From Sphingomonas sp. (GTDB lineage Bacteria; Pseudomonadota; Alphaproteobacteria; Sphingomonadales; Sphingomonadaceae): DNA of 50,667 nucleotides. Below the pieces are notes generated by a model that was given only the letters and a program-made list of their open reading frames with translations, searched no databases and was not told the DNA's origin. Position numbers and translations under genes: made by a program. The stretch covers positions 1-50,667 of the forward strand of contig NZ_JAFKLZ010000006.1 in NCBI RefSeq assembly GCF_017304615.1, read 5' to 3'. Shown piece after piece: positions 1,055 through 12,410 of this stretch; the stretch's first letter is position 1; every line of letters starts with the position of its first letter.

Positions 1055-2110
1055 TCACGCGGCGCGGTTGCGACGGGTTACGCTACGCGCGCCGCCGACG
1101 AGCCGGGACGCTAGCAGTTCGTCCAGGCTCGAATATCCCAGGCCGAGATGATCGGGGCGGATCGCCATCGCGGCCGACAGGCCGATCGTCCCGGCCTTGA
1201 GCGCCGTGCGGACGACGCGGCCCCAGCGCAGCGCGCTCTCCCAGCGGATCATCGTCAGGCTGTCCTGATCGACCGCCCGGTTCGACAGAAACTGATCTTG
1301 CAGCCGACCGATCAGCTCGCCGAGCCGCTCGAGCGTCGCGCGATCTGGGACCGGCGTGCCATGCATCAGATGCCGCACGATCAGCGCGGCGTCGTCGGAA
1401 GGGTCAATCGCGCCGAGGCTAGCATAGCTTTCCGCCAACACCCGCGCCGCATTGGCCTGCATCGTATCGACGTAGCGCTGCGACGCGCCGCCGCCATGCT
1501 TGCGATAGAGCAGGAGCGGCTCGTCGATCCGGGCGATCCTGCCGATCCGCGCCATACGATGGTATAGGTCAAAATCCTCCGCGTAGAGGAAATCGGGCCT
1601 CGTAAAATCTCCCGGCGGGACGGCGTCGCGGCGCAGCATGACGGTGGACCAGACCAGCGGGTTTTCGATATGGAGCAGCCATTCGATCAACTGCGGCGTC
1701 GTTACCGGCGACTTGATGCTCGACGTGACCGTGCCGTCTTCCAGCACCGCCGCGGCCGTGCCGAGCAGCACGACGTCCGGGTTGGCGTCGAGGTGTGCAA
1801 CTTGGCGCGCGAACCGCTCGGGCAGACATATATCGTCCTGGTCCAGCCCTGCGACGTAACGGCCGCGCGCTTCGGCAAAGGCGCGATTGCGACTGCGGAC
1901 CGGACCGCCATTCTGTTCGGCGGGGATGATTTTCAGACGGGGGTCGGGACAGGCGCGCAAGATCTCTAGCGTGTCGTCGGTCGAGCAATCGTCAACCGCG
2001 ATCACCTGGAAGTCGGTGAAGGTCTGCGCCCAGAGGCTGTCGAGCGTATCCCCGATCAGGCCGGCGCCGTTATACGCAGCCATGACGACGCTGACCGCGG
2101 GTCGAGTCAT
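1055..2110 (-). CDS. Glycosyltransferase family 2
   Basis: A 351-residue protein. It should transfer a sugar from a nucleotide-activated donor; acceptor and sugar cannot be told from sequence. The N-terminal GT-A fold is clear: VSVVMAAYNG at residues 7-16, the nucleotide-binding DD at 40-41, and DQDD at 90-93 as the metal-binding DxD. YAEDFDLYHR further on probably holds the catalytic base region. No signal peptide or clear membrane span is visible, so it is probably cytosolic or peripheral. The ATG at 2110 was chosen because it overlaps the TGA of the upstream fusion gene as ATGA and starts directly with the GT-A strand; an upstream extension is open but unlike the family. Translational coupling suggests one pathway, perhaps assembly of a glycan or glycosylated metabolite (inference). 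Confidence 0.88.
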   Translation of the reverse strand: MTRPAVSVVMAAYNGAGLIGDTLDSLWAQTFTDFQVIAVDDCSTDDTLEILRACPDPRLKIIPAEQNGGPVRSRNRAFAEARGRYVAGLDQDDICLPERFARQVAHLDANPDVVLLGTAAAVLEDGTVTSSIKSPVTTPQLIEWLLHIENPLVWSTVMLRRDAVPPGDFTRPDFLYAEDFDLYHRMARIGRIARIDEPLLLYRKHGGGASQRYVDTMQANAARVLAESYASLGAIDPSDDAALIVRHLMHGTPVPDRATLERLGELIGRLQDQFLSNRAVDQDSLTMIRWESALRWGRVVRTALKAGTIGLSAAMAIRPDHLGLGYSSLDELLASRLVGGARSVTRRNRAA

Positions 2111-4575
2111 GCCACCGCGCGCTCGCGGTCGCCGAGCACCTGCTCGACGATCATTTGGCCGACATCGTTCTGCCACAGCCAAAGCCCGTTGGCCTGACCG
2201 CGGAAGCTTGCTTCGCCGCCCAGCTGGCCCCAAGGCACGAAACCGGCGGCGAGCCCGATGCCGAATACCCCGGGAATGGGCCGGTCGTTCGCGTCGAGCA
2301 CTCGGCAATGCTTGTCGACCATCGGCCGGTCGCGATGCGCCGCAAGTGCGATGGGCGCGCCGCTCGCGTCGAACAGCGGCAGCGCCTGGGGACGATAGCC
2401 GAGCGCGGCGACGACGAGGTCTGCTTGTTCGATCATCCTGCGGGCGGCCTCCTCATCGTCGCCGATCATGTGTGAGGTGACGCGCGGGTCGGGAGCGCGG
2501 CCGTCCACCTGCAGCATGCGCAGGACGAGTTCGCGCGCTTCGAGCCGGAAACCGCCGAGGCGATACACAAATCCGGACACCGGACAGATGTCATTCTCGT
2601 TGAAATCGTTGAAGTTATCGTCACGCGCGGCATCGGCGCTGTGGTAGAAGGGGCGTAACGGGCGGCTATGGAGCAAGGCGATCCCGCCCGCGCCGAAAGC
2701 GATGCCCGGGCGGCTGCGCAGCATCAACGCGACGCTGGCGAGCGCGCTGGTCGAGCCCCCGATCACGACGACCTTGGGGTTACGTATGCTGCGCAGCAGA
2801 TCCGCAGCACGATCGAGCCCGCCGAGCGCGAGCAGCTCGTCCGACTGCATGATCCGGCCGTCCGCGATCTGGTGTAGCGGCGCCCCGGCGACTTGCTGGG
2901 CGACGAGACGGTCGAGCGGCTGATGGCCACCGGTGGCTATGACGATCGTGTTCGAACGATGCTCGCTCACGGCATTGTCGGATAGGCGGCGGAGGCGCGT
3001 CGTCCAGCTGCCATCGGGCAGGTGGTGCGCATCGACGACTTCATGCCCGGTCGCGATCCGCCCGCCATTGGCCGCAACGATCTGCGCCAGCCGGTCGCCC
3101 GTAGCGCGCAGCAAAGGTCCCGCCTCGACCAGCGGCACGCCCAGCGCGCCGACCGACTTGGCGACCTGGCGCGCGGCTGGATGGTCGATCAGCGATGCGA
3201 TTTCGGGATACGGGTTGTCCCTGACCGCGCTCAGAAAAGTTTCGGCGGTCGAATCCGAGGCGATGGCATAATGGCCCAGCCGGCCGCCGCCGAGCGCATC
3301 GTCGCGTTCGACGATCGTCAGTCCGGCCTGCGCCAGATCGGCGAGCCGCCCCTGCTTCGATGCTGCGGTCAGCAGCGCGGTGCCGGCGGGTCCGCCACCG
3401 ACGATCAGCATGGCGTCGATCCGCTTCGGGCGCGCCGGCGTTCGCTGTGCACGGACCGCGACGCCAACGCGGGCGGCGATGATGCGGGCGTCCGCCGCCG
3501 TCATCGCGTCGGTGATGGGCAGCGAAATGATTCGCGCGGCAACGTCGTCCGCGACCGGCGTCGGCCCGGCGATAGCATGGTCGCGGAACCACGGTTGTTG
3601 GCCGAGATGCGGGCTGAAATACGCGCCGCAACCGATCCCATCGGCCGCCAGCGCCCCCACCACGCGGTCGCGATCGGCATGTTGCGGCAGCAGCGCAGGC
3701 ATGAATTGCGTGGCGCGAGCGGAGCCCGCTACCGCCTGCAGCGTCAGACCGTCGAGCGCGTCGGCATAGGCCGCCTCGACCGCCGCGCGGTTGGCCACCA
3801 CCTCGCCGATCTCGCCGAGCTTGAGCCGCGCCATCGCCGCGACGATCTCCGACATCTTGGCGTTGATCCCGGGCATCACCGCGGCGCGGCTGCCGGCGAA
3901 CCCGAAATTGTTCATGCGACGAAGATCGTCGATCAGGTCGCTATCGCCGCAATGGATCAGCCCGCCCTCGGCGACCGCGAAGGTCTTGGTCGCGTGGAGC
4001 GAATAGATGATTGCGAACGGCGCGCCCGTGCCGAAACCCTGGCCGCTCGTGTCGATCGTGCCGAGCGAAGCGGCCGCATCGACCACCACGCCAACGCCAT
4101 GGCGGCGCATCAGCCAGGCATAGCGATCGAGGTCGATCGCGGTGCCGAACGTGGCGTACGGCACGACGACCGCGATTTGTCCGGCATGCTTTTCGAGCAA
4201 CCGTTCTTCGGCTGCGGCGCACATCGTCCAATCGTGCGGGTCGATGTCGGCGAGCAGCGGGGTCAGCCCGCACCATTCGGCGGCTTGCGCGGTGGCTGCA
4301 AAGGTGAAGGCGGGCATCAGCGCCAGTCCGCCGGGGCGCGGCTCGCGGCCCACCGCCTGGCGGATCGCGAGCATCAGCCCGAGTGTCGCATTGCCGACGC
4401 CCAGGCATGCGCCCTGGCCGCCGAACAGTTTGGCGGTCGCTTCCGCTTCGAACGCGCGCAGTTCGGGTCCGTTGTTCGAATAGATGCCCGATTCCTCGAC
4501 TCGCTTGAGCACATCGAGATGCTCGCTGAGGCGCGGCGGATTGGGATCGATCAGCGGGTAGCGCAGTTGAGCCAT
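2107..4575 (-). CDS. DegT/DnrJ/EryC1-type aminotransferase fused to an FAD/NAD(P) oxidoreductase
   Basis: An 822-residue two-domain protein. Residues 1-375 form a DegT/DnrJ/EryC1/StrS PLP fold: D166 in VVVDAAAS should bind the pyridine nitrogen and K197 in HATKTF is the expected Schiff-base lysine. DegT enzymes normally aminate keto-sugars. Residues 387-822 start with a Rossmann FAD motif (MLIVGGGPAG, 389-398), then an ATGG motif (547-550), a second dinucleotide motif (VVVIGGSTSA, 602-611) and a final GIG motif near 772, resembling flavin monooxygenases of the N-hydroxylase or FAD/NAD(P)-binding type. The frame is open through the junction, so the fusion is visible in the DNA. Usual DegT proteins are about 370-400 residues and carry no flavin domain. 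The product may be an oxidised amino sugar (hydroxylamino or similar), but this is inference. No clear ribosome site precedes the ATG. Confidence 0.85.
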   Translation of the reverse strand: MAQLRYPLIDPNPPRLSEHLDVLKRVEESGIYSNNGPELRAFEAEATAKLFGGQGACLGVGNATLGLMLAIRQAVGREPRPGGLALMPAFTFAATAQAAEWCGLTPLLADIDPHDWTMCAAAEERLLEKHAGQIAVVVPYATFGTAIDLDRYAWLMRRHGVGVVVDAAASLGTIDTSGQGFGTGAPFAIIYSLHATKTFAVAEGGLIHCGDSDLIDDLRRMNNFGFAGSRAAVMPGINAKMSEIVAAMARLKLGEIGEVVANRAAVEAAYADALDGLTLQAVAGSARATQFMPALLPQHADRDRVVGALAADGIGCGAYFSPHLGQQPWFRDHAIAGPTPVADDVAARIISLPITDAMTAADARIIAARVGVAVRAQRTPARPKRIDAMLIVGGGPAGTALLTAASKQGRLADLAQAGLTIVERDDALGGGRLGHYAIASDSTAETFLSAVRDNPYPEIASLIDHPAARQVAKSVGALGVPLVEAGPLLRATGDRLAQIVAANGGRIATGHEVVDAHHLPDGSWTTRLRRLSDNAVSEHRSNTIVIATGGHQPLDRLVAQQVAGAPLHQIADGRIMQSDELLALGGLDRAADLLRSIRNPKVVVIGGSTSALASVALMLRSRPGIAFGAGGIALLHSRPLRPFYHSADAARDDNFNDFNENDICPVSGFVYRLGGFRLEARELVLRMLQVDGRAPDPRVTSHMIGDDEEAARRMIEQADLVVAALGYRPQALPLFDASGAPIALAAHRDRPMVDKHCRVLDANDRPIPGVFGIGLAAGFVPWGQLGGEASFRGQANGLWLWQNDVGQMIVEQVLGDRERAVA

Positions 4576-4734
4576 GATCGGCGCTTGTGACAGGGACCGC
4601 CTAAGAAGCGGTTACGCTCGGTGTAACGGGGGAGGACAGGGCCAGGCTGTGGCCGGTCTGCGGTGATGCTGCGCCGTCCCGCCGCAGCAAAATGGGTGCT
4701 TGACCTGCGCCGCGCTCCGATTGACGATGCGTGT

Positions 4735-5082
4735 ATGACAAGCACAGATCCGGCCGCGATGTTTCGCGAGATGCTGGGCGAATGGGAGAAGCTGGCGAAC
4801 AGCGTGGGGGACGGGCTGGCCAAGTCCGACGAATTTTCGCGCTTCATGCACGGCGCGACGACGGCGCAGATGAACACGCAGGAAGCGATCAGCGGCATGA
4901 TGGCCCGCGCGCTCGCCGCCGCCAACATGCCGAGCCGCGCCGAGATCGAGGATCTGTCCGCTCGCCTCGCGCGGATGGAGGTGATGCTGGCGCGGATTGA
5001 GGAGCGCTTGGGCGGCGCGCCGGAACGGGCCGACCGGCCCAAGCCGAGCCGGACGCGCAAACCTCCGGCGGCCAAGGCCTGA
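4735..5082 (+). CDS. Short PhaE/PhaR-like PHA synthase subunit
   Basis: A 115-residue acidic-to-basic protein directly before a class III-type PHA synthase. The segment PSRAEIEDLSARLARMEVML is a predicted amphipathic or coiled-coil helix and resembles the C-terminal part of PhaE subunits, followed by a Lys/Pro/Ala-rich tail. Known PhaE proteins are around 360 residues and PhaR around 200, so this would be an unusually small partner. By family analogy it would bind PhaC and activate polymerisation at the granule. The ATG at 4735 was chosen; an in-frame ATG at 4663 would add an atypical basic stretch. No Shine-Dalgarno sequence is visible. Its TGA is separated from the synthase TTG start by one codon in the same frame. 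Confidence 0.6.
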   Translation: MTSTDPAAMFREMLGEWEKLANSVGDGLAKSDEFSRFMHGATTAQMNTQEAISGMMARALAAANMPSRAEIEDLSARLARMEVMLARIEERLGGAPERADRPKPSRTRKPPAAKA

Positions 5083-5085
5083 AGT

Positions 5086-6156
5086 TTGGCGACCGCCGCC
5101 CTAGACCTGGCGGACGCCGCGCGCGTCGAGTTCGAACGGGCGATGCAGCGCAATCTGAAGGGACTCGAATACTTCCAGACCAGCGGGCCGACGCTCGGCG
5201 CGACGTCCAAGGACGTGCTGATCGAACGCGGCACGATGCGGCTTTATCATTATCATCCGCGAACGGACGACGTGTATCGCGTGCCGATCCTGCTGGTGAT
5301 GGCGACGACCAACCGCGGCTACGTCTTCGACATGGTGCCGGGGCAGAGCCTGGTCGAATATCTGCTGAACGCGGGGTTCGACGTGTTCATGCTCGACTGG
5401 GACGCGCCGCGCGCCGACGAGCGGACGTTGACGCTCGAAAGCTACGTTCTCGACTTCCTGCCCGCCGCGGTCGCGCGGGTGAAGGCGGAGACGGGGGAGC
5501 CGGACATAAACGTCGTCGCTTATTGCTTTGGCGGCGTGCTGTCGCTGCTGTGGGCGGCGCTGCATCCGGATGCGGGGCTGGCGAATCTCGTCACCTTCAC
5601 GACGCCGGTCGATTTTTCGCAGATGGAGATGTTTCAGACCTGGGCTGACCGGCGTTTCTTCGACGTCGACAAATTGGTCGATACGTTCGGCAACTGCCCC
5701 GGCGACTATCTCTACACAGCGTTCGATATGCTGCGGCCCGCCGCGCGAACGGCCGGCAACATCCGGCTCTACGACAATTTGTGGAACGACGAGTTCGTGA
5801 AGTCGTATCGCATGTTCGACCGCTGGACCTCGGACCAGCTGCCGCTGGCGGGCGAATATTTCCGCCAGACGACCAAGAAGCTGATGTGGGGCAATGAATT
5901 GCTCGCGGGTACGCTGGAAGTCGGCGGGCGACGGGTCGATCTCGGCAAGATCACGGTTCCGTTTCTCCATGTCACTGCCGAGCACGACCATATCGTGCCG
6001 ACCGGCGCCTCCGCTCCGCTGATCGACATGGTCGGATCGACCGACAAGCAGGCGATCATGCTGAAGGGCGGGCATGTCAGCCTGATCGCGGGGCCGAATG
6101 CGATCAAACGGTTGTGGCCCAACCTCGTCGCCTGGCTGGGAGAGCGATCGACATGA
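5086..6156 (+). CDS. phaC: Class III-type polyhydroxyalkanoate synthase (PhaC)
   Basis: A 356-residue alpha/beta-hydrolase that polymerises (R)-3-hydroxyacyl-CoA into polyester granules. The nucleophile motif is AYCFGG with Cys147, where lipases have Ser. Asp301 (AEHDHIVP) and His330 (GGHVSLIAG) complete the triad. This spacing nearly equals the C149-D302-H331 triad known for the Allochromatium vinosum class III enzyme, and the length fits class III rather than the roughly 560-600-residue class I enzymes. The start is TTG at 5086, four bases after the stop of the PhaE-like gene; no better start lies before conserved sequence. An ATGA overlap couples it to the next gene. The main uncertainty is substrate chain length. 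Confidence 0.9.
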   Translation: MATAALDLADAARVEFERAMQRNLKGLEYFQTSGPTLGATSKDVLIERGTMRLYHYHPRTDDVYRVPILLVMATTNRGYVFDMVPGQSLVEYLLNAGFDVFMLDWDAPRADERTLTLESYVLDFLPAAVARVKAETGEPDINVVAYCFGGVLSLLWAALHPDAGLANLVTFTTPVDFSQMEMFQTWADRRFFDVDKLVDTFGNCPGDYLYTAFDMLRPAARTAGNIRLYDNLWNDEFVKSYRMFDRWTSDQLPLAGEYFRQTTKKLMWGNELLAGTLEVGGRRVDLGKITVPFLHVTAEHDHIVPTGASAPLIDMVGSTDKQAIMLKGGHVSLIAGPNAIKRLWPNLVAWLGERST

Positions 6157-6686
6157 GCCACGTTATCCGCCGTTTCCGCCCCGAGGACCGCGACATGGTG
6201 ATCGCCTTCGCCGCGGCCTTGCCCGAACATGACTTGCTGTTTCTCAGCCGCGACGTGCGCGAGCCGCGCGTGGTGGCGGCATGGCTCGACGCGATCGAGG
6301 CGGGACTGATCGACAGCCTGATCGCCGAGGATGGCGGGGAGATCGTCGCCACCGCGGCGCTGGTCCACGATCCGCTGAGCTGGTCGCCGCATGTCGGCGA
6401 AGTGCGCTTGCTGGTCGCGTCGGGGCGGCGGGGGTCGGGGCTGGGCAGCGACTTGCTCCAGGGCATCTTCATGATCGCGCGGGATCGCGGGCTGGCCAAG
6501 CTGACCGCGCGGATGACGGTCGACCAGACCGGATCGATCGCGCTGTTCGAGGGCGTCGGGTTTCGCGCCGAAGCGATGCTGAAGGATCAGGTGCGTGGGG
6601 CGGACGGGCAGAGTCACGACCTCGCCATCCTGAGCTATGACGCTGCCCGAGTCGCGGCGCGGCATCAGGCGATCGGGATCGAATAG
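6153..6686 (+). CDS. GNAT family N-acetyltransferase
   Basis: A 177-residue protein with the GNAT fold. The acetyl-CoA loop is in VRLLVASGRRGSGLGSDLL (R/Q-x-x-G-x-G/A type), and the C-terminal part has the usual VDQTGSIALFEGVGFRAEA segment around the last strand-helix. Substrate is unknown. The ATG at 6153 overlaps the phaC stop as ATGA, so it is translated with the PHA synthase; a longer in-frame start exists but lies inside phaC. Position suggests a role linked to acyl-CoA metabolism or simply co-transcription (inference). Confidence 0.85.
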   Translation: MSHVIRRFRPEDRDMVIAFAAALPEHDLLFLSRDVREPRVVAAWLDAIEAGLIDSLIAEDGGEIVATAALVHDPLSWSPHVGEVRLLVASGRRGSGLGSDLLQGIFMIARDRGLAKLTARMTVDQTGSIALFEGVGFRAEAMLKDQVRGADGQSHDLAILSYDAARVAARHQAIGIE

Positions 6687-6741
6687 GGATCGAATTAACG
6701 GGGCGGGCGTAGAACCCGCTCGACCGCAGGAGAATATCGAA

Positions 6742-7533
6742 ATGGCGACCGCAGCACCCGAAACCAGCGTCAAGGCGCCATCCGCGCTGCTCGCGCTGAC
6801 CGAATTGCCGCGCGCGCTGTTCGAACTGGGCTCGCTGCCCTGGGCGGCGCCGATGCTCGCGACGGCGCCGCGCGGCGACGGGCATCCGGTGATCGTGCTG
6901 CCCGGGTTCGTCACCAGCGACCGCTCGACCGGCATCCTGCGCGGCTTCCTCAAGCGCCATGGCTATGCCGCGCACACCTGGGACCTGGGCCGCAACCTCG
7001 GGCCCAAGGCGATCGGGCATCAGGGCGAGAAGCTGATCGAGCGCGTGCTCGCGGTGTATGAGGAGAGCGGGCAGAAGGTGTCGCTGGTCGGCTGGAGCCT
7101 GGGCGGCGTCATGGCGCGCCTCGTCGCCAAGCGCATTCCCCACGCGATCCGTCAGGTCATCACGCTCGGCTCGCCCTTTTCGGGCAGCCCCAAGGCGTCA
7201 AACGTCTGGCGAGCGTACGAAATGCTGACCGGACAGAAGATCGACGCCGACCATACCAAGGCGCAGCTGCATGAGGTGTCCGCCCCTCCGCCGGTGCCCT
7301 CGACCGCGATCTATTCGCGCGCCGACGGCGTCGTCGCGTGGCAGAATTGCTGCGAGGAGATCGGCCCGATGTCGGACAATATCGAAGTCCATGGCAGCCA
7401 TTGCGGGCTCGGCTTCAACGCCAGTGTCCTCTTTGCGATCGCCGACCGGCTGGCGCAGCCCGAGGACGACTGGCATCCGTTCGAACGCAGCGGGTTGCGG
7501 GCGTTCGTCTATCCGTCGGCGGGGCACGCCTGA
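6742..7533 (+). CDS. Alpha/beta hydrolase, lipase-like
   Basis: A 263-residue cytosolic hydrolase. VIVLPGFVTSD (50-60) forms the oxyanion-side loop, GWSLGG carries the nucleophile Ser119, YSRADGVV probably supplies the acid and GSHCGLG the histidine. These fit PGAP1-like or lipase-type alpha/beta hydrolases that cleave esters. An AGGAG-type ribosome site about nine bases before the ATG at 6742 fixes the start. It lies 55 bases after the acetyltransferase inside a storage-polymer cluster, so an intracellular depolymerase or acyl-ester hydrolase is plausible, but it lacks the typical PhaZ sequence. A strong terminator follows. Confidence 0.8.
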   Translation: MATAAPETSVKAPSALLALTELPRALFELGSLPWAAPMLATAPRGDGHPVIVLPGFVTSDRSTGILRGFLKRHGYAAHTWDLGRNLGPKAIGHQGEKLIERVLAVYEESGQKVSLVGWSLGGVMARLVAKRIPHAIRQVITLGSPFSGSPKASNVWRAYEMLTGQKIDADHTKAQLHEVSAPPPVPSTAIYSRADGVVAWQNCCEEIGPMSDNIEVHGSHCGLGFNASVLFAIADRLAQPEDDWHPFERSGLRAFVYPSAGHA

Positions 7534-7541
7534 CCTCTTGG

Positions 7542-7568
7542 CCTCCCCCCTTGAAGGGGAGGTTTTTT
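7542..7568 (+). terminator. Rho-independent terminator with CCTCCCC/GGGGAGG stem
   Basis: CCTCCCC (7542-7548) pairs with GGGGAGG (7556-7562) across a CCTTGAA loop, followed by six T. It terminates the phaE-like/phaC/GNAT/hydrolase transcript. The stem-loop type resembles a short element that I recall as widespread in sphingomonad intergenic regions. The T-run touches the stop codon of the converging phasin gene. Confidence 0.85.
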
Positions 7569-8012
7569 CAGTCCTTCTTCCCCGAGCCCACGGCATCCTT
7601 GCCGAATTGCATGATCAGGTCGCCGATCTCGCGGGCATGGGCGAGCGCGCGCGCCTTGCTGGCGTAGATAGTCGCCCTGGATCTTCGCCACCTCGGCCGG
7701 GTTCTTCGCACCTGCCGCCGCGCGCATCGCAGCGAAGGCCTCGCGCGTGTTGGCCTCGGCGTGCTCGATCACCTTCATGCTAACCGAATTGCCCTGCTTG
7801 GCAAGTTTTTCCCCCGATTTTCGGATGTTATCGCCAATCCCCTCAACGCGGTCGGCGGTCGCCTTGGCTCCTGAAGCCACTCGGTCGGTCGCGTCCTTGG
7901 TCGCCTTCGCGGCGCGGTCGGTGACGTCCTTGGCGCGCTTGGCGGCGTTGTCGGTCGCGTCCTTCGCGCGTTTCGCTCCCTTGTCGATTGCGTCCTTGAC
8001 CTTCTTCGCCAT
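7568..8012 (-). CDS. Phasin family protein, frameshifted near its C-terminus
   Basis: A granule-coat protein of about 145 residues if the frame is repaired. Five 11-residue Lys/Ala/Asp repeats form the N-terminus, followed by a phasin core (SVSMKVIEHAEANTREAFAA, then AEVAKIQGDYL). After QGDYL the frame is lost at about 7655-7668. The expected ending (KARALAHAREIGDLIMQFGK, then DAVGSGKKD and TGA at 7568-7570) continues in another frame. The unrepaired frame instead runs on to 7509 with an Arg/Pro-rich tail unlike phasins. It is either a real mutation, a sequencing error, or recoding. The ATG at 8012 overlaps the stop of the upstream acyltransferase as ATGA; a GTG at 8015 is the alternative. 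Phasins coat PHA granules and control their size, which fits the neighbouring phaC. Confidence 0.8.
7845..8009 (-). repeat. Five tandem 11-codon (33-bp) repeats in the phasin gene
   Basis: Residues 2-56 of the phasin consist of five consecutive 11-residue units of the type AKRAKDATDNA, with Lys at position 2 or 5, Asp at 6 and 9, and Ala elsewhere. On DNA these are imperfect 33-bp repeats. The pattern predicts a long amphipathic helix like those of LEA group 3 or lipid-droplet proteins, fit for lying on a granule surface. Confidence 0.75.
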
Positions 8013-9526
8013 CACTTTGCTCCCTTGGCAGCGCGCTTGGGCACGAGTTTGGGTTTCGCGGCCGGCGGGCGGGCCGGCCTGTTTTCCTTAGCCTCTTTCG
8101 GCGCCGCCGTCTTGAGCGCCGCCGCCTTCAACGCATCGAATGACGAGCGCAACGCGGCGGCATACGTGCCGGGGTCGGGCAGCATGTCGCGGTCGGCGGT
8201 GAAGGACACCGCGATCGTATCGACGTACGAATAGACCGGGTGGATCAGGCCCATGCTGTCGAACACCGGCGCGGTCCCCGCCGAAAACACCATCTTCGCG
8301 CCGCAGAAATAGAGCGGCACCTTGGGCCCGGGCACGTTGGTGACGACGACGTTGAAAGCCGGCGCATGCATGTTCGCGGCCCCCACGCGCGTGTAGAGCC
8401 GAGCGCCTAGCCCGGCGAGGCCGGAAGGGATGAGCTTCGAATAGTCCGACAGGGTCTTGGCCCCGACCGCGTTGGTCATCGCCTTCGAATTGACCGCCTC
8501 TTCATGCACGAATCGCAGCCGTTCGAGCGGGTCCTCGATCTGCGTGCCAAGGCCCACCACCATGGCCGAAACGAGGTTGCCGAGCGCGGCCTTCTCGCCC
8601 TCCTGCCGCACCGAAATCGGCGCCATCGCGGTCATCGTCTCCTTGGGCAGGTCGTCCTTGTCCTTGAGGTAAGAACGCAGCGCGCCGCCGACGACCGTCA
8701 GGATGACGTCGTTGACCGTCGCGTCGGGCACCGCTTCCTTGATCGCGCGCACTTCGGCGAGCTTGAACGGGACCGCGTCCCAGACGCGATGCGCGGAGAC
8801 CTTGCCGTTGAATCGTGTCTTGGGCGCGGGGCGGGTGTTCTTGAGCGAGACGTCGCCCTTGCCCGCCTGCACCGCGAGCTTCGCCATGCCTGGCAGCGAG
8901 CGGCCGATCGTCTCCGCAATACGCATCGGCTGGAGCAGATTGTTGAAGTAACTGCGCGTCAGCAGGTCCGCCACGCGCGGCATGTTCTCCGGTGCCCAGG
9001 TGTCGGGCTTTTCCGGCGGCGTCATTTTGGCGTCGAGGTCGTGGACCGCGACCGACATCTCGACCCCCGACATGCCGTCGATCGCGGCGTGGTGAACCTT
9101 GGAAACCAGCGCAAAGCAGCCCTTGGGGATGCCGGGAATGTTATCCAGCCCCTCGACCACGGTGAATTCCCAGAGCGGCTTGGTCAGGTCCATCGGGCGG
9201 GCGTGGAGCCGGGCGACCTGGATGCAGAGCTGGCGCCAGTCGCCGGGCTTGGGCAAGGCGATGTGGCGGACGTGGAATTCGATATCGAACTCGGGGTCCT
9301 CGATCCAATAGGGATGATCGACGTCGAACGGCACACGCACCAGCCGCTGCCGGAAGCTGCGCGCGCCCGGCAGCCGTTGCTCGATGAAGCGCAATATGTC
9401 CTTGAACCGCACAAACCCGCCAGGCGCGGTCGACGGGTCGTAGATGCCGACCGACCCGATGTGCATCGGCGTGTGCGGGGTTTCGAGGTAAACGAACGAC
9501 GCGTCCATCGCACTCAATTGCTGCAT
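8012..9526 (-). CDS. Wax ester synthase/diacylglycerol acyltransferase (WS/DGAT)
   Basis: A 504-residue protein of the bifunctional WS/DGAT family, which joins fatty acyl-CoA to long-chain alcohols or diacylglycerol to make wax esters or triacylglycerol. The catalytic HHxxxDG motif is present as HHAAIDG (145-151). The N-terminus (MDASFVYLETPHTPMHIGSV) and the later NVPGPKVPLYFCG segment are also typical. Length matches the family. The C-terminus ends in a Lys/Pro/Ala-rich tail. AGGAG lies about nine bases before the ATG at 9526. Coupling to a phasin by ATGA overlap, beside a PHA synthase, puts two types of storage lipid in one locus. In vivo product is not determinable here. Confidence 0.92.
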   Translation of the reverse strand: MQQLSAMDASFVYLETPHTPMHIGSVGIYDPSTAPGGFVRFKDILRFIEQRLPGARSFRQRLVRVPFDVDHPYWIEDPEFDIEFHVRHIALPKPGDWRQLCIQVARLHARPMDLTKPLWEFTVVEGLDNIPGIPKGCFALVSKVHHAAIDGMSGVEMSVAVHDLDAKMTPPEKPDTWAPENMPRVADLLTRSYFNNLLQPMRIAETIGRSLPGMAKLAVQAGKGDVSLKNTRPAPKTRFNGKVSAHRVWDAVPFKLAEVRAIKEAVPDATVNDVILTVVGGALRSYLKDKDDLPKETMTAMAPISVRQEGEKAALGNLVSAMVVGLGTQIEDPLERLRFVHEEAVNSKAMTNAVGAKTLSDYSKLIPSGLAGLGARLYTRVGAANMHAPAFNVVVTNVPGPKVPLYFCGAKMVFSAGTAPVFDSMGLIHPVYSYVDTIAVSFTADRDMLPDPGTYAAALRSSFDALKAAALKTAAPKEAKENRPARPPAAKPKLVPKRAAKGAK

Positions 9527-9656
9527 CGGGCGGCTCTCCTATTCACGCCGGCTGTGACCGGTCGCGAGCGAGCTTAGCAGAGGGCGGGGAAGCGAGCGAG
9601 TCGCCACCACCGTCCCGCGGCGCTACAGTCCGGGCGAGAGTAATCTGGAGGTTTGG

Positions 9657-10100
9657 ATGCGGGCGATGTTGGCGGGACTGGCGATGCTGGCGACGGGGGC
9701 GTCGAGCGCGCCGTCGATGCCGGGCTGGATTAGCGGATGCTGGGTCGAGCAGAAGGGCGCCAACTGGACCGAGGAATGCTGGACCGGCCCGCGCGCCGAC
9801 CAGATGATGGGTTCCGGTCGCAACGGCCGGGACGACCAGCTCAAGTCGTGGGAAACGATGCAGATCGAGCGCGGCGCGGACGGGACGCTCGTTTTCTACG
9901 GATCCGTCAAGGGCGGCGCGCGAGTGGCGTTCCCAATGGTATCTGCCAGCGATCGCGACATCGTCTTCGCCAATCCGACGCACGATTACCCGCAACGCAT
10001 CCATTACTGGCGCGAGGGAATGGCGCTGAACGCTGAAGTCAGCCTGATGGACGGGACGCAGAAATATGGCTGGAAGTACGCACGGCAGGGCGGGAATTGA
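9657..10100 (+). CDS. Small exported protein, DUF6265-like
   Basis: A 147-residue protein with a short hydrophobic N-terminus (MRAMLAGLAMLATGASSAPS) that looks like a Sec signal peptide. The mature part begins WISGCWVEQKG and has ECWTGPRADQMMG, then a predicted beta-rich domain ending near YGWKYARQ. This pattern matches the DUF6265 family as I recall it; no enzymatic function is known. A GGAGG box lies about ten bases before the ATG at 9657, which sets the start. It is divergent from the acyltransferase gene and appears monocistronic. Confidence 0.75.
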   Translation: MRAMLAGLAMLATGASSAPSMPGWISGCWVEQKGANWTEECWTGPRADQMMGSGRNGRDDQLKSWETMQIERGADGTLVFYGSVKGGARVAFPMVSASDRDIVFANPTHDYPQRIHYWREGMALNAEVSLMDGTQKYGWKYARQGGN

Positions 10101-10195
10101 GCGTCTTGCTGACGCGATAGATGGGTGACTGCTAACGACCCAATTGCGGACGTTACCTATAACGGCGAAACTCCTGCCCGTTGAGGAGAATTGAC

Positions 10196-10525
10196 GTGAG
10201 CGGCATTTACGTTGAACGTCGATTTGAGTCCGCTAGAGGAGAAGTGCTCGCCCACTTTGAAACGCCATAGCTCGCCCCCGGTGGTGAGTTCCGATGCCGC
10301 TGGCGCATTTTATGGCCGGATCACGAGAGCAGTCGCGAGACGGCTGGAATTGACGGAATTCAGGCGCTCCTCCTCGCGATGAAAACTGTCCGGCTGGAGC
10401 TTGTCGAAAGCAATTTATATCGCTCCGGCGATCTCACATATCTCAATCAGCCGGACCTTGATTTGCCGCCGACTTGGGGAAACGGCTCGCTGTACGACGT
10501 CGGACCGCTACCGAACGGCAGCTAA
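10196..10525 (+). pseudogene. DUF6968-like gene with an in-frame TAG
   Basis: A GTG at 10196 preceded by a GAGGAG ribosome site opens a 110-codon frame with a single interruption: a TAG at 10268-10270 (codon 25). Beyond it the frame is open to TAA at 10523-10525 and reads as a sensible protein, including the segment ETAGIDGIQALLLAMKTVRL, which resembles the DUF6968 family. Codon use stays protein-like on both sides of the stop. A nonsense-inactivated gene is the simplest reading; a sequencing error or suppression are alternatives. It fills the stretch between the exported protein and the atp operon. Confidence 0.7.
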
Positions 10526-10546
10526 TCACCCAAAAGCAGCCCTAAG

Positions 10547-10573
10547 AAAAAGCCCGGCGGGTTAGGCCGGGCT
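10547..10573 (-). terminator. Rho-independent terminator of the atp operon
   Basis: On the minus strand AGCCCGGC and GCCGGGCT form an 8-bp stem with a 7-base loop, followed by TTTTT. It lies 30 bases beyond the atpC stop. Confidence 0.8.
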
Positions 10574-10602
10574 TCTCGAATATTCGTCTTGGGCGACGGC
10601 AG

Positions 10603-10856
10603 TTATCCGGCTTGCTCGGCCAGCACCGTCAGCCCGCTCGCCGAAACTTCGGCGAAGCCGCCCTGGATCGGCACGATCTCCGGCTCGCCCTTGTCGGTGG
10701 CGTAGATGTGCAAAGCGCCGTCGCGGATCGTCGACATGAAGGGGGCATGGCCCTCCAGCACGCCGAAATCGCCCTCGGTGCCCGGAACGACGACCTGATA
10801 GACCTCCTCCGAGCGGAGCAGCTTCTCGGGCGTCACGAGTTCGAAGTGAAGCGGCA

Positions 10857-10857
<1 letters not shown>
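10603..10857 (-). CDS. atpC: F1F0 ATP synthase epsilon subunit, short form
   Basis: An 84-residue epsilon subunit of the central stalk. Only the N-terminal beta-sandwich is present ([44 protein letters not shown]). The two-helix C-terminal domain found in the usual 130-140-residue subunit is missing, so the helix-based inhibition of ATP hydrolysis cannot operate. As I recall, this short form is typical of sphingomonads and related alphaproteobacteria. The ATG overlaps the atpD stop by one base (TAATG). It is the last gene of atpHAGDC. Confidence 0.95.

Positions 10858-12410
<1,553 letters not shown>

Follow-up and report, generated by a model that had tools for sequence, protein, structure and literature searches.

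What reaction might a DegT-type aminotransferase, dependent on pyridoxal 5'-phosphate (PLP), carry out when it is joined in a single chain to a flavoprotein resembling the group B monooxygenases? Such a fusion is encoded on the minus strand of a 50,667-nucleotide stretch of Sphingomonas sp. DNA (contig NZ_JAFKLZ010000006.1; "the window" below is this whole stretch). A first-pass annotation, made from the sequence alone, had proposed that the chain could aminate a keto-sugar and oxidize the new nitrogen or a neighboring carbon without release, and that a coupled glycosyltransferase could then use the product. The analysis reported here suggests a bifunctional nucleotide-sugar enzyme. Its N-terminal half, with PLP at Lys197, would aminate the C4 ketone of a nucleoside diphosphate (NDP)-4-keto-6-deoxy-hexose, our best guess at the substrate being dTDP-4-keto-6-deoxyglucose (dTDP, deoxythymidine diphosphate); its C-terminal half, using flavin adenine dinucleotide (FAD), NADPH and O2, would N-hydroxylate the primary amine so formed, much as SidA-type N-hydroxylating monooxygenases do. 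The product would be an NDP-4-(hydroxyamino)-4,6-dideoxy-sugar, possibly oxidized further to an oxime or nitroso compound, and a co-translated family-2 glycosyltransferase would attach the resulting sugar to a cell-surface glycan. On the combined grounds of sequence, fold and gene context, we give amination of an NDP-4-keto-6-deoxy-sugar followed by N-hydroxylation for a surface glycan an even chance of being right; we infer the substrate, the C4 position, the N-hydroxylation, the use of NADPH and the acceptor.

That the fusion is genuine is nearly certain. The frame (2107-4575, minus strand; Table 1) is uninterrupted over 822 residues and contains Pfam matches to PF01041 at residues 18-368 (214.6 bits; cut-off 19.8) and, in the flavin half, to Pyr_redox_2 (PF07992; best stretch 389-612, 34.8 bits; cut-off 26.1). 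A scan of genome contigs for relatives yielded 33 loci, in 30 of which both halves lie within one open frame. The three exceptions are a Sphingomonas yabuuchiae DSM 14562 locus (L038) in which the frame of the aminotransferase half is broken, a locus at a contig edge (L042) and a Paracoccus locus (L043) with a 33% aminotransferase match only; the frame is unbroken in another S. yabuuchiae record (L026). The nearest protein relatives come from Sphingomonas or from unplaced proteobacterial bins (83% in a proteobacterial metagenome-assembled genome, 79% in S. asaccharolytica).

Both halves are also conserved where it matters. The alignment used has 38 rows, including the window but omitting its duplicate L002; L003 and L017 are one locus, so that not all rows are independent. 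Invariant positions number 85 within residues 1-380 and 94 in the remainder. The residues to which the first-pass annotation had drawn attention (Lys197, Asp166, GGGPAG at 393-398 and a second motif near 606) are where it placed them, the last being GGSTSA at 606-611. K197, D166, G393-G395, P396, G606, S608 and T609 are invariant in 38/38 rows, A397 (35/38), G398 (36/38) and S610 (37/38) are nearly so, and G607 is kept in 23/38, with Ala in 15. The ratio of nonsynonymous to synonymous substitution rates (dN/dS), which is rough because dS was high in these pairwise comparisons, was 0.15-0.37 for the aminotransferase half and 0.12-0.34 for the flavin half in six comparisons with six relatives; for a 10-codon linker (residues 377-386) it was 0.24-0.98 in the five computable comparisons, and ≥0.75 in four of these. 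Both halves are thus under constraint, and the linker is mostly without it. Because one open frame recurs in 30 of 33 loci and the catalytic residues are invariant, the fusion is neither chance nor a sequencing or assembly error; a one-off fusion or frameshift artifact is ruled out, and so, by motif conservation (GGGP in 38/38 rows, rather than a GxGxxG lost in relatives) and constraint, is an inactive flavin remnant.

The N-terminal half belongs with the DegT/DnrJ/EryC1/StrS family: besides scoring above the PF01041 cut-off it keeps Lys197, presumably the Schiff-base lysine, and Asp166, which we take to be the partner of the PLP ring nitrogen. Its closest solved structure is 3ju7, a putative aminotransferase of Bacillus cereus (36% identity, TM-score 0.92 on the target); DesI (2po3, with its TDP-sugar product) comes second, and the structures that follow include GDP-perosamine synthase and ArnB. 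DesI also gives the best NCBIfam model (TIGR04427). The window half shares the DegT fold and the PLP lysine and aspartate with DesI and GDP-perosamine synthase but, unlike them, is fused to a flavoprotein, and at 157.4 bits it falls so far under the DesI equivalog cut-off of 650 that it is not a DesI orthologue. The equivalog cut-offs for PseC (139.8 against 423.5), ArnB (105 against 631) and LegC (95 against 420) were likewise missed. In sequence the half resembles the C4-aminotransferases of NDP-4-keto-6-deoxy-sugars, such as DesI and perosamine synthase, and amination of a sugar nucleotide seems likely. The aminotransferases that accompany the flavin family elsewhere fall into three DegT groups: the window type, for which DesI is the best model; the type found in family f194, which scores ~280 bits with DesI; and the form found in genomes G313 and G449, of which the G313 enzyme is nearest to LegC and perosamine synthase and has a CBS-like match under the cut-off. 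Eight such partners were scanned, and the best model was DesI for seven and LegC for one, all under curated cut-offs; DesI and perosamine synthase are also among the solved structures that match such partners best. The aminotransferases of these best-scoring models act at C4.

A plasmid search with the aminotransferase half (best 30 of 482 records listed; four opened, H1-H4) offers an analogy for the substrate. Among the matches listed, the best-placed relative free of a flavin partner is from Peribacillus (38.8% over 5-353). Its gene is followed, unlike that in the window, by an acetyltransferase gene and then by rfbA, rfbB and rfbD, and none of the 14 annotated features displayed at that locus is named as a flavoprotein. 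At the locus of an Allorhizobium relative (H4, 33%), too, an acetyltransferase gene is close by and flavoprotein names are lacking among the features. By analogy with Peribacillus, dTDP-4-keto-6-deoxyglucose is the probable substrate of the aminotransferase half, with the flavin half probably standing in for the acetyltransferase. The genome from which the window comes encodes RmlB (dTDP-glucose 4,6-dehydratase) and GDP-mannose 4,6-dehydratase, both above cut-offs, on a different contig from the fusion, and has no second DegT match at E 1e-20.

The source of the ketone bears on an alternative in which the flavin half acts first, oxidizing a sugar hydroxyl to a ketone that the aminotransferase half then aminates. 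Pairs of this kind more commonly oxidize first and aminate second, as in NtdC/NtdA, WbpB/WbpE and the FAD dehydrogenase and aminotransferase of aminoglycoside pathways, and the profile matches of the flavin half include reductases and dehydrogenases besides monooxygenases. However, the aminotransferase half resembles enzymes that are given their ketone by a 4,6-dehydratase, so that no oxidation step would be required; the fold and NADPH motif of the flavin half are nearer to monooxygenases; and its distant relatives occur with quite different PLP enzymes, which a shared amine fits better than a shared sugar alcohol. We consider the flavin-first order unlikely.

Motifs of the flavin half were compared between 18 diverse members of its family and 43 control flavoproteins, namely 11 N-hydroxylating monooxygenases (NMOs), 12 flavin-containing monooxygenases (FMOs; one of 13 loci lacked a usable frame and was omitted) and 20 disulfide reductases. 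GxGP is present in 18/18 members but is non-discriminating, since most controls share it. The SA-type NADPH motif is more telling, occurring in 18/18 family members, 7/11 NMOs, 2/12 FMOs and 0/20 disulfide reductases. A stretch of the form D...(L/F)ATGY is an N-hydroxylase motif, and its relaxed version, D...[LFA]A.GY, was found in 9/18, 7/11, 1/12 and 0/20, respectively; the bare GY is uninformative, being present in 8/12 FMOs, 19/20 disulfide reductases and all the others. The FxGxxxHxxx(Y/F/W) fingerprint of FMOs and Baeyer-Villiger monooxygenases (BVMOs) occurs in 0/18 family members versus 8/12 of the FMO set, and CxxxxC in 0/18 versus 19/20 disulfide reductases; the dimerization domain PF02852 is not among the Pfam families that the flavin family matches. 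In a profile comparison the scores were 119.5 for FMO (294 columns), 100.4 for NMO (118 columns) and 71.7 for dihydrolipoamide dehydrogenase (173 columns). A pyridine-nucleotide disulfide reductase is thus weakened as a candidate by the missing CxxxxC and PF02852 and the lower profile score, and a classical FMO or BVMO by the missing fingerprint, even though the FMO profile scored highest. At the level of sequence, the motifs agree with a monooxygenase. The family also has a signature of its own, Asp-x-Cys (D277 and C279 in flavin-half numbering), which is invariant in 16/16 rows of a broader alignment overlapping the first and is found in none of the 43 controls, including all 11 NMOs.

An AlphaFold2 model of the flavin half (mean predicted local distance difference test score, pLDDT, 83; predicted TM-score, pTM, 0.82) was searched against the PDB with Foldseek, and the best 50 of 1020 rows were examined. 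Rows 1-37 are SidA ornithine N-hydroxylase and DiatB (E 1.6e-14 to 8.9e-13, TM-score ~0.48-0.56); row 38 is the first disulfide reductase, after which KtzI, DfoA, PvdA and other N-hydroxylases appear among more reductases. SidA and DiatB are ahead of the reductase by 0.07-0.10 in TM-score and by two orders of magnitude in E-value, a margin that makes this evidence suggestive and not proof. Among the rows examined, N-hydroxylating monooxygenases are the nearest in fold to the flavin half, which also shares FAD and NADPH motifs with them; it differs from SidA, KtzI, DfoA and PvdA in its extra invariant Asp-x-Cys and in failing to match PF13434, and the substrates of those enzymes are amino acids and diamines. 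The biosynthetic role first proposed for the fusion is therefore borne out in part: one half looks like a sugar aminotransferase and nitrogen oxidation fits the N-hydroxylase fold, whereas we found nothing pointing to oxidation of a neighboring carbon. N-oxygenation of the new amine is the best single explanation, though the balance of evidence leaves it close to a coin toss.

The same data bear on the idea that the flavin half oxidizes the amine carbon or the sugar ring (by oxidative deamination, ring hydroxylation or a Baeyer-Villiger type of reaction) to give some other modified amino- or keto-sugar. An excerpt of a review places in group B the BVMOs and FMOs, which oxidize other atoms (PMC7347517); the FMO profile is the one that scored highest; and the invariant Asp-x-Cys is absent from 11/11 NMO sequences, so that the family may have an active site unlike the one in classical NMOs. 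Set against this are the absence of the FMO fingerprint (0/18 versus 8/12), the preference for N-hydroxylases in the Foldseek rows examined, and the fact that the flavin family is often paired with PLP enzymes, most of them aminotransferases or decarboxylases by type, which points to nitrogen. Carbon or ring oxidation thus seems unlikely, if worth keeping in mind. A further possibility is that the flavin half serves the PLP half as a redox accessory, or is a structural domain only. PLP and flavin proteins do cooperate in 3-deoxysugar formation, the E1/E3 system consisting of a dehydrase dependent on pyridoxamine 5'-phosphate (PMP) and a flavin reductase, and the matches of two partner aminotransferases include 3-dehydrases of the E1 kind. 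In the PMP-dependent 3-dehydrases (E1, ColD), however, histidine replaces the PLP lysine, which is invariant across all fusion and aminotransferase rows, and this weakens such a system as a candidate. Moreover, the flavin half is as constrained as the aminotransferase half and also exists as a separate gene, and no ferredoxin-reductase type is among the best 50 of 1020 Foldseek rows, though ferredoxin-NADP reductases are among the sequence-profile matches. We regard an accessory or structural role as very improbable.

How the two proteins are paired across genomes argues for a shared task. The flavin half is present in only 10 of 249 sampled genomes of the source genome's family, so that the module is sporadic. 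Eight of the ten carry single-frame fusions, one (G207) is cut by contig ends, and in the tenth (G011) the aminotransferase, flavin protein and glycosyltransferase are three genes in this order, each start overlapping the preceding stop. Aminotransferase and flavin protein are likewise separate adjacent genes in G491, G578, G313 and G449; several relatives, then, use two proteins instead of one chain. The aminotransferase-flavin order is that of Sphingomonadaceae, and the opposite order occurs in Granulicella tundricola (L063; Acidobacteriota, plasmid pACIX904) and in G292 (L066). In family f194 (four genomes, three of one genus) the order is flavin protein, aminotransferase, a 503-506 aa protein, glycosyltransferase and a 734-737 aa protein. 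Over three partly overlapping draws, 20 of the 24 genomes with the flavin family have a DegT aminotransferase gene fused to the flavin gene or adjoining it (G207 is counted on the basis of two contig ends).

In a tree of the flavin family, which is small and has some long branches, the two reversed fusions group together (94/91, slightly below the tool's mark) and the separate-gene forms are placed, weakly, between them and the Sphingomonadaceae. The simplest reading of these placements is that there were at least two fusion events, in opposite orders. Among the Sphingomonadaceae, L079 (fused) and L078 (unfused) form a pair (90/82), which makes one later split or an additional fusion likely as well. 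Independent fusion of the same partners is strong evidence for a shared pathway. The whole-protein model (pTM 0.50) is uninformative on the mutual arrangement of the halves or on channeling.

A plasmid protein search with the flavin half alone extended these observations to distant relatives. It gave nine records, of which two are fusions and seven were opened (H38 and H39 were unopened); the proteins of the two fusion records are annotated only as 'DegT/DnrJ/EryC1/StrS family aminotransferase'. Six of the seven opened records have a PLP enzyme fused to the flavin protein or within one gene of it; the seventh, from Tistrella, is without annotation, and no aminotransferase was found nearby (L070 is the same stretch by position). 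The Shinella relative is annotated 'SidA/IucD/PvdA family monooxygenase' and overlaps a PLP enzyme gene within a nonribosomal peptide synthetase/polyketide synthase cluster. The gene next to the flavin relative carries a class I/II PLP enzyme annotation in both Erwinia and Rahnella, and a scan of the Erwinia one showed a nucleotidyltransferase-PLP fusion; in Priestia such a fusion lies one gene further, past an acetyltransferase. When the PLP parts of these two fusions, from Erwinia and Priestia, were scored against family models, the decarboxylase CobD ranked first, under its cut-off. Two distant relatives exceed the PF13434 cut-off of 21.3, namely Priestia L132 (23.6) and Shinella L133 (26.2), and 4 of the 18 flavin-family members match this model weakly (best E 0.0024).

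To our knowledge, N-oxygenated sugars are known only from a few antibiotics. The sugar N-oxygenases KijD3, ORF36, RubN8 and CalS13/CalE10 (the last two from the calicheamicin pathway) act on a dTDP-amino-sugar from a DegT aminotransferase, and they are acyl-CoA-dehydrogenase-like flavoproteins or a P450, not group B flavoproteins, and are not known to be fused. The cytidylyltransferase FrbH also has a PLP half. An excerpt of one paper assigns FrbH to the FR-900098 pathway (PMC6697681), and an excerpt of a review describes FrbG of that pathway as an FAD N-hydroxylase whose target is the aminopropylphosphonate unit of a cytidine monophosphate (CMP) conjugate (PMC7347517). By this description, FrbG is a precedent for an FAD N-hydroxylase that works on a nucleotide conjugate, unlike the window protein in that it acts on a phosphonate and not a sugar; its name is absent among the PDB matches listed, and the likeness is one of description only. 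In the open-licence literature searched (titles and abstract starts, best matches), we found no paper on a DegT-flavin fusion or on sugar-nucleotide N-oxygenation by an NMO-type enzyme. The best explanation of the fusion is that it would work like an aminotransferase and N-hydroxylase pair.

The proposed destination of the sugar rests on the surrounding genes. A relative of the glycosyltransferase lies directly downstream in 33/33 loci with the flavin half, the window included, and its ATG or GTG start overlaps the fusion stop in 31/33 (the other two, L037 and L040, end in TAG), as expected from the coupling proposed at the outset. Selected neighboring genes were scanned against Pfam. A Wzx-type gene follows the glycosyltransferase in L031, L034 and L036 (two Novosphingobium, one uncultured Sphingomonadales); the Granulicella locus has Wzz, export and sugar-transferase genes; and in L073, the only f194 locus scanned, the 503-506 aa protein is flippase-like and the 734-737 aa protein Wzc-type. 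A surface glycan is therefore the likeliest destination. These neighbors also bear on whether the substrate is a sugar at all. The DegT family also includes enzymes that aminate cyclitols or aromatic precursors, with AHBA synthase among the matches, and one distant flavin relative, as noted, sits in a peptide/polyketide cluster, so that N-hydroxylation might still be the outcome with a non-sugar carbonyl compound as substrate (a cyclitol, an amino acid or a lipid head group). On the other hand, 8/8 partner aminotransferases match best to sugar-nucleotide models, though under cut-offs, and glycosyltransferase, Wzx-, Wzc- or Wzz-type neighbors recur at several loci; a non-sugar substrate is quite unlikely.

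Several observations weigh against N-hydroxylation or the pathway built around it. Besides the glycosyltransferase, no neighbor family is found in most loci (the neighbors at Sphingomonas loci were not Pfam-scanned), and no NDP-sugar dehydratase gene was found adjoining the window fusion. Four of the 24 genomes (G408, G505, G911 and G750) have a flavin relative but no aminotransferase within the 14-19.5 kb fetched. The PLP neighbor in Shinella is of Cys/Met type by Pfam and no evident aminotransferase, and Erwinia L131 scores 16.7, under the PF13434 cut-off. PF13434 gives no match to the window flavin half even with the threshold relaxed to E 10, and since the cut-off test failed the half is not assigned to that family; its NCBIfam matches are weak and chiefly to malate:quinone oxidoreductases. 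A single-sequence PDB search gave no match under E 0.42, PDB profile searches mix N-hydroxylases with thioredoxin and ferredoxin-NADP reductases, and the profile comparison puts FMO above NMO, the latter aligned across 118 columns only. The Foldseek TM-scores are just ~0.48-0.56, with a disulfide reductase close behind (E 1.8e-12 versus 1.6e-14). Conserved flavin stretches are modeled with low confidence (395-411 in the flavin model, 641-679 and 780-796 in the whole model): Asp-x-Cys lies within 641-679, where pLDDT is under 50, and in the flavin-only model its block averages 72 and the next block 51. Finally, the figure legend in the review excerpt draws the FrbG amine N-acetylated, so that this enzyme may not act on a free amine (PMC7347517).

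With these points included, it is possible, at somewhat less than an even chance, that the dispersed and repeatedly fused pair makes NDP-4-(hydroxyamino)- or nitroso-sugars for surface glycans, and that group B flavoproteins with Asp-x-Cys N-oxygenate amines from neighboring PLP enzymes. If so, N-O sugars would occur on surface polysaccharides of common environmental bacteria, widening the known chemistry of bacterial glycans, and the fusion would be a compact bifunctional catalyst for which a single polypeptide and the dehydratase product suffice. Both fusion orders and the swapped aminotransferase groups around one flavin family also give a direct and testable functional prediction for proteins that, in the two fusion records, bear no more than a DegT-family aminotransferase annotation.

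Table 1. Coordinates of the fusion gene, its parts and motifs, and the adjoining glycosyltransferase gene in the window
Feature	Positions	Strand	Basis
Fusion gene, 822 aa, DegT-type aminotransferase + group-B-like flavoprotein	2107..4575	-	Open frame; Pfam; one frame in 30/33 loci
Aminotransferase half, residues 1-376	3448..4575	-	PF01041 at 18-368; best solved structures 3ju7, DesI 2po3
Asp166 (PLP ring nitrogen partner, expected)	4078..4080	-	Invariant in 38/38 fusion rows and 15/15 aligned aminotransferases including window
Lys197 (PLP Schiff-base lysine, expected; HATK)	3985..3987	-	Invariant in 38/38 fusion rows and 15/15 aligned aminotransferases including window
Inter-domain linker, residues 377-385	3421..3447	-	Length and sequence highly variable among relatives; dN/dS
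Flavin half, residues 386-822	2110..3420	-	PF07992; top 37 Foldseek matches are SidA entries and DiatB
GGGPAG, FAD-binding dinucleotide motif, residues 393-398	3382..3399	-	Alignment; GxGP in 18/18 diverse relatives
GGSTSA, likely NADPH-binding motif, residues 606-611	2743..2760	-	G[GAS][SAG].SA in 18/18 relatives; aligns with NMO motif in profile comparison
D662-I-C664, invariant flavin-family motif	2584..2592	-	D[IV]C in 18/18 relatives, 0/43 control flavoproteins
D719-LVVAAL-G726-Y727, possible counterpart of N-hydroxylase D...ATGY stretch	2395..2421	-	G and Y invariant 16/16
Glycosyltransferase family 2 gene	1055..2110	-	PF00535, E 3e-31; start overlaps fusion stop by 4 bases (ATGA, 2107-2110)

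Some further features of these loci were seen in passing. The end of the two-gene unit in the window is adjoined by tRNA-Met (699-775) and tRNA-Thr (959-1034) genes on the plus strand; tRNA genes are frequent insertion spots for mobile DNA. The record L037 carries the title Arthrobacter sp. TPD3018, yet its module has the same locus coordinates as that of Sphingomonas aquatilis L040 and similar neighbors; probably the organism is misnamed or the sample was mixed. In three genomes, drawn from different families, the neighbors of the aminotransferase-flavin pair include related proteins (L065 7301-8188, L066 8408-9334, L067 10399-11817), possibly an additional pathway step; those of L065 and L066 are 39% identical, that of L066 has no Pfam match at E 0.001, and that of L067 matches F5/8 type C models only. 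FkbM-type methyltransferase genes occur near the flavin gene in L065 (11199-11903, by look), L068 (5155-6000; Pfam) and L077 (8178-8903; Pfam), hinting that the sugar may also be methylated.

Among the distant flavin relatives, that of Priestia megaterium pBM700 (L132, 6494-14598) lies in a run with two ATP-grasp genes, an AAC(3)-type acetyltransferase, the nucleotidyltransferase-PLP fusion and a 1-deoxy-D-xylulose 5-phosphate (DXP) reductoisomerase gene, an arrangement that resembles a small-molecule cluster in which the reductoisomerase (DXR) perhaps confers self-resistance. The gene content of the Priestia and Erwinia clusters recalls FR-900098, but a phosphonate pathway is not claimed, phosphoenolpyruvate (PEP) mutase being found on 0/3 plasmids searched (chromosomes were outside this search). 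The plasmids of Erwinia rhapontici (L131) and Rahnella sikkimica (L135) share one gene order (flavin relative, PLP enzyme, CDP-alcohol phosphatidyltransferase, HAD hydrolase and HAD-IIIC protein), an unnamed pathway. In L070 (G505) and L071 (G408), from the same genus, a divergent flavin relative lies at ~3500-11500 amid genes of similar sizes; in L070 it stands between a heme-oxygenase-like iron protein and an ATP-grasp enzyme, together with an HMGL-like gene and an MFS transporter, and this run is a probable natural-product cluster.

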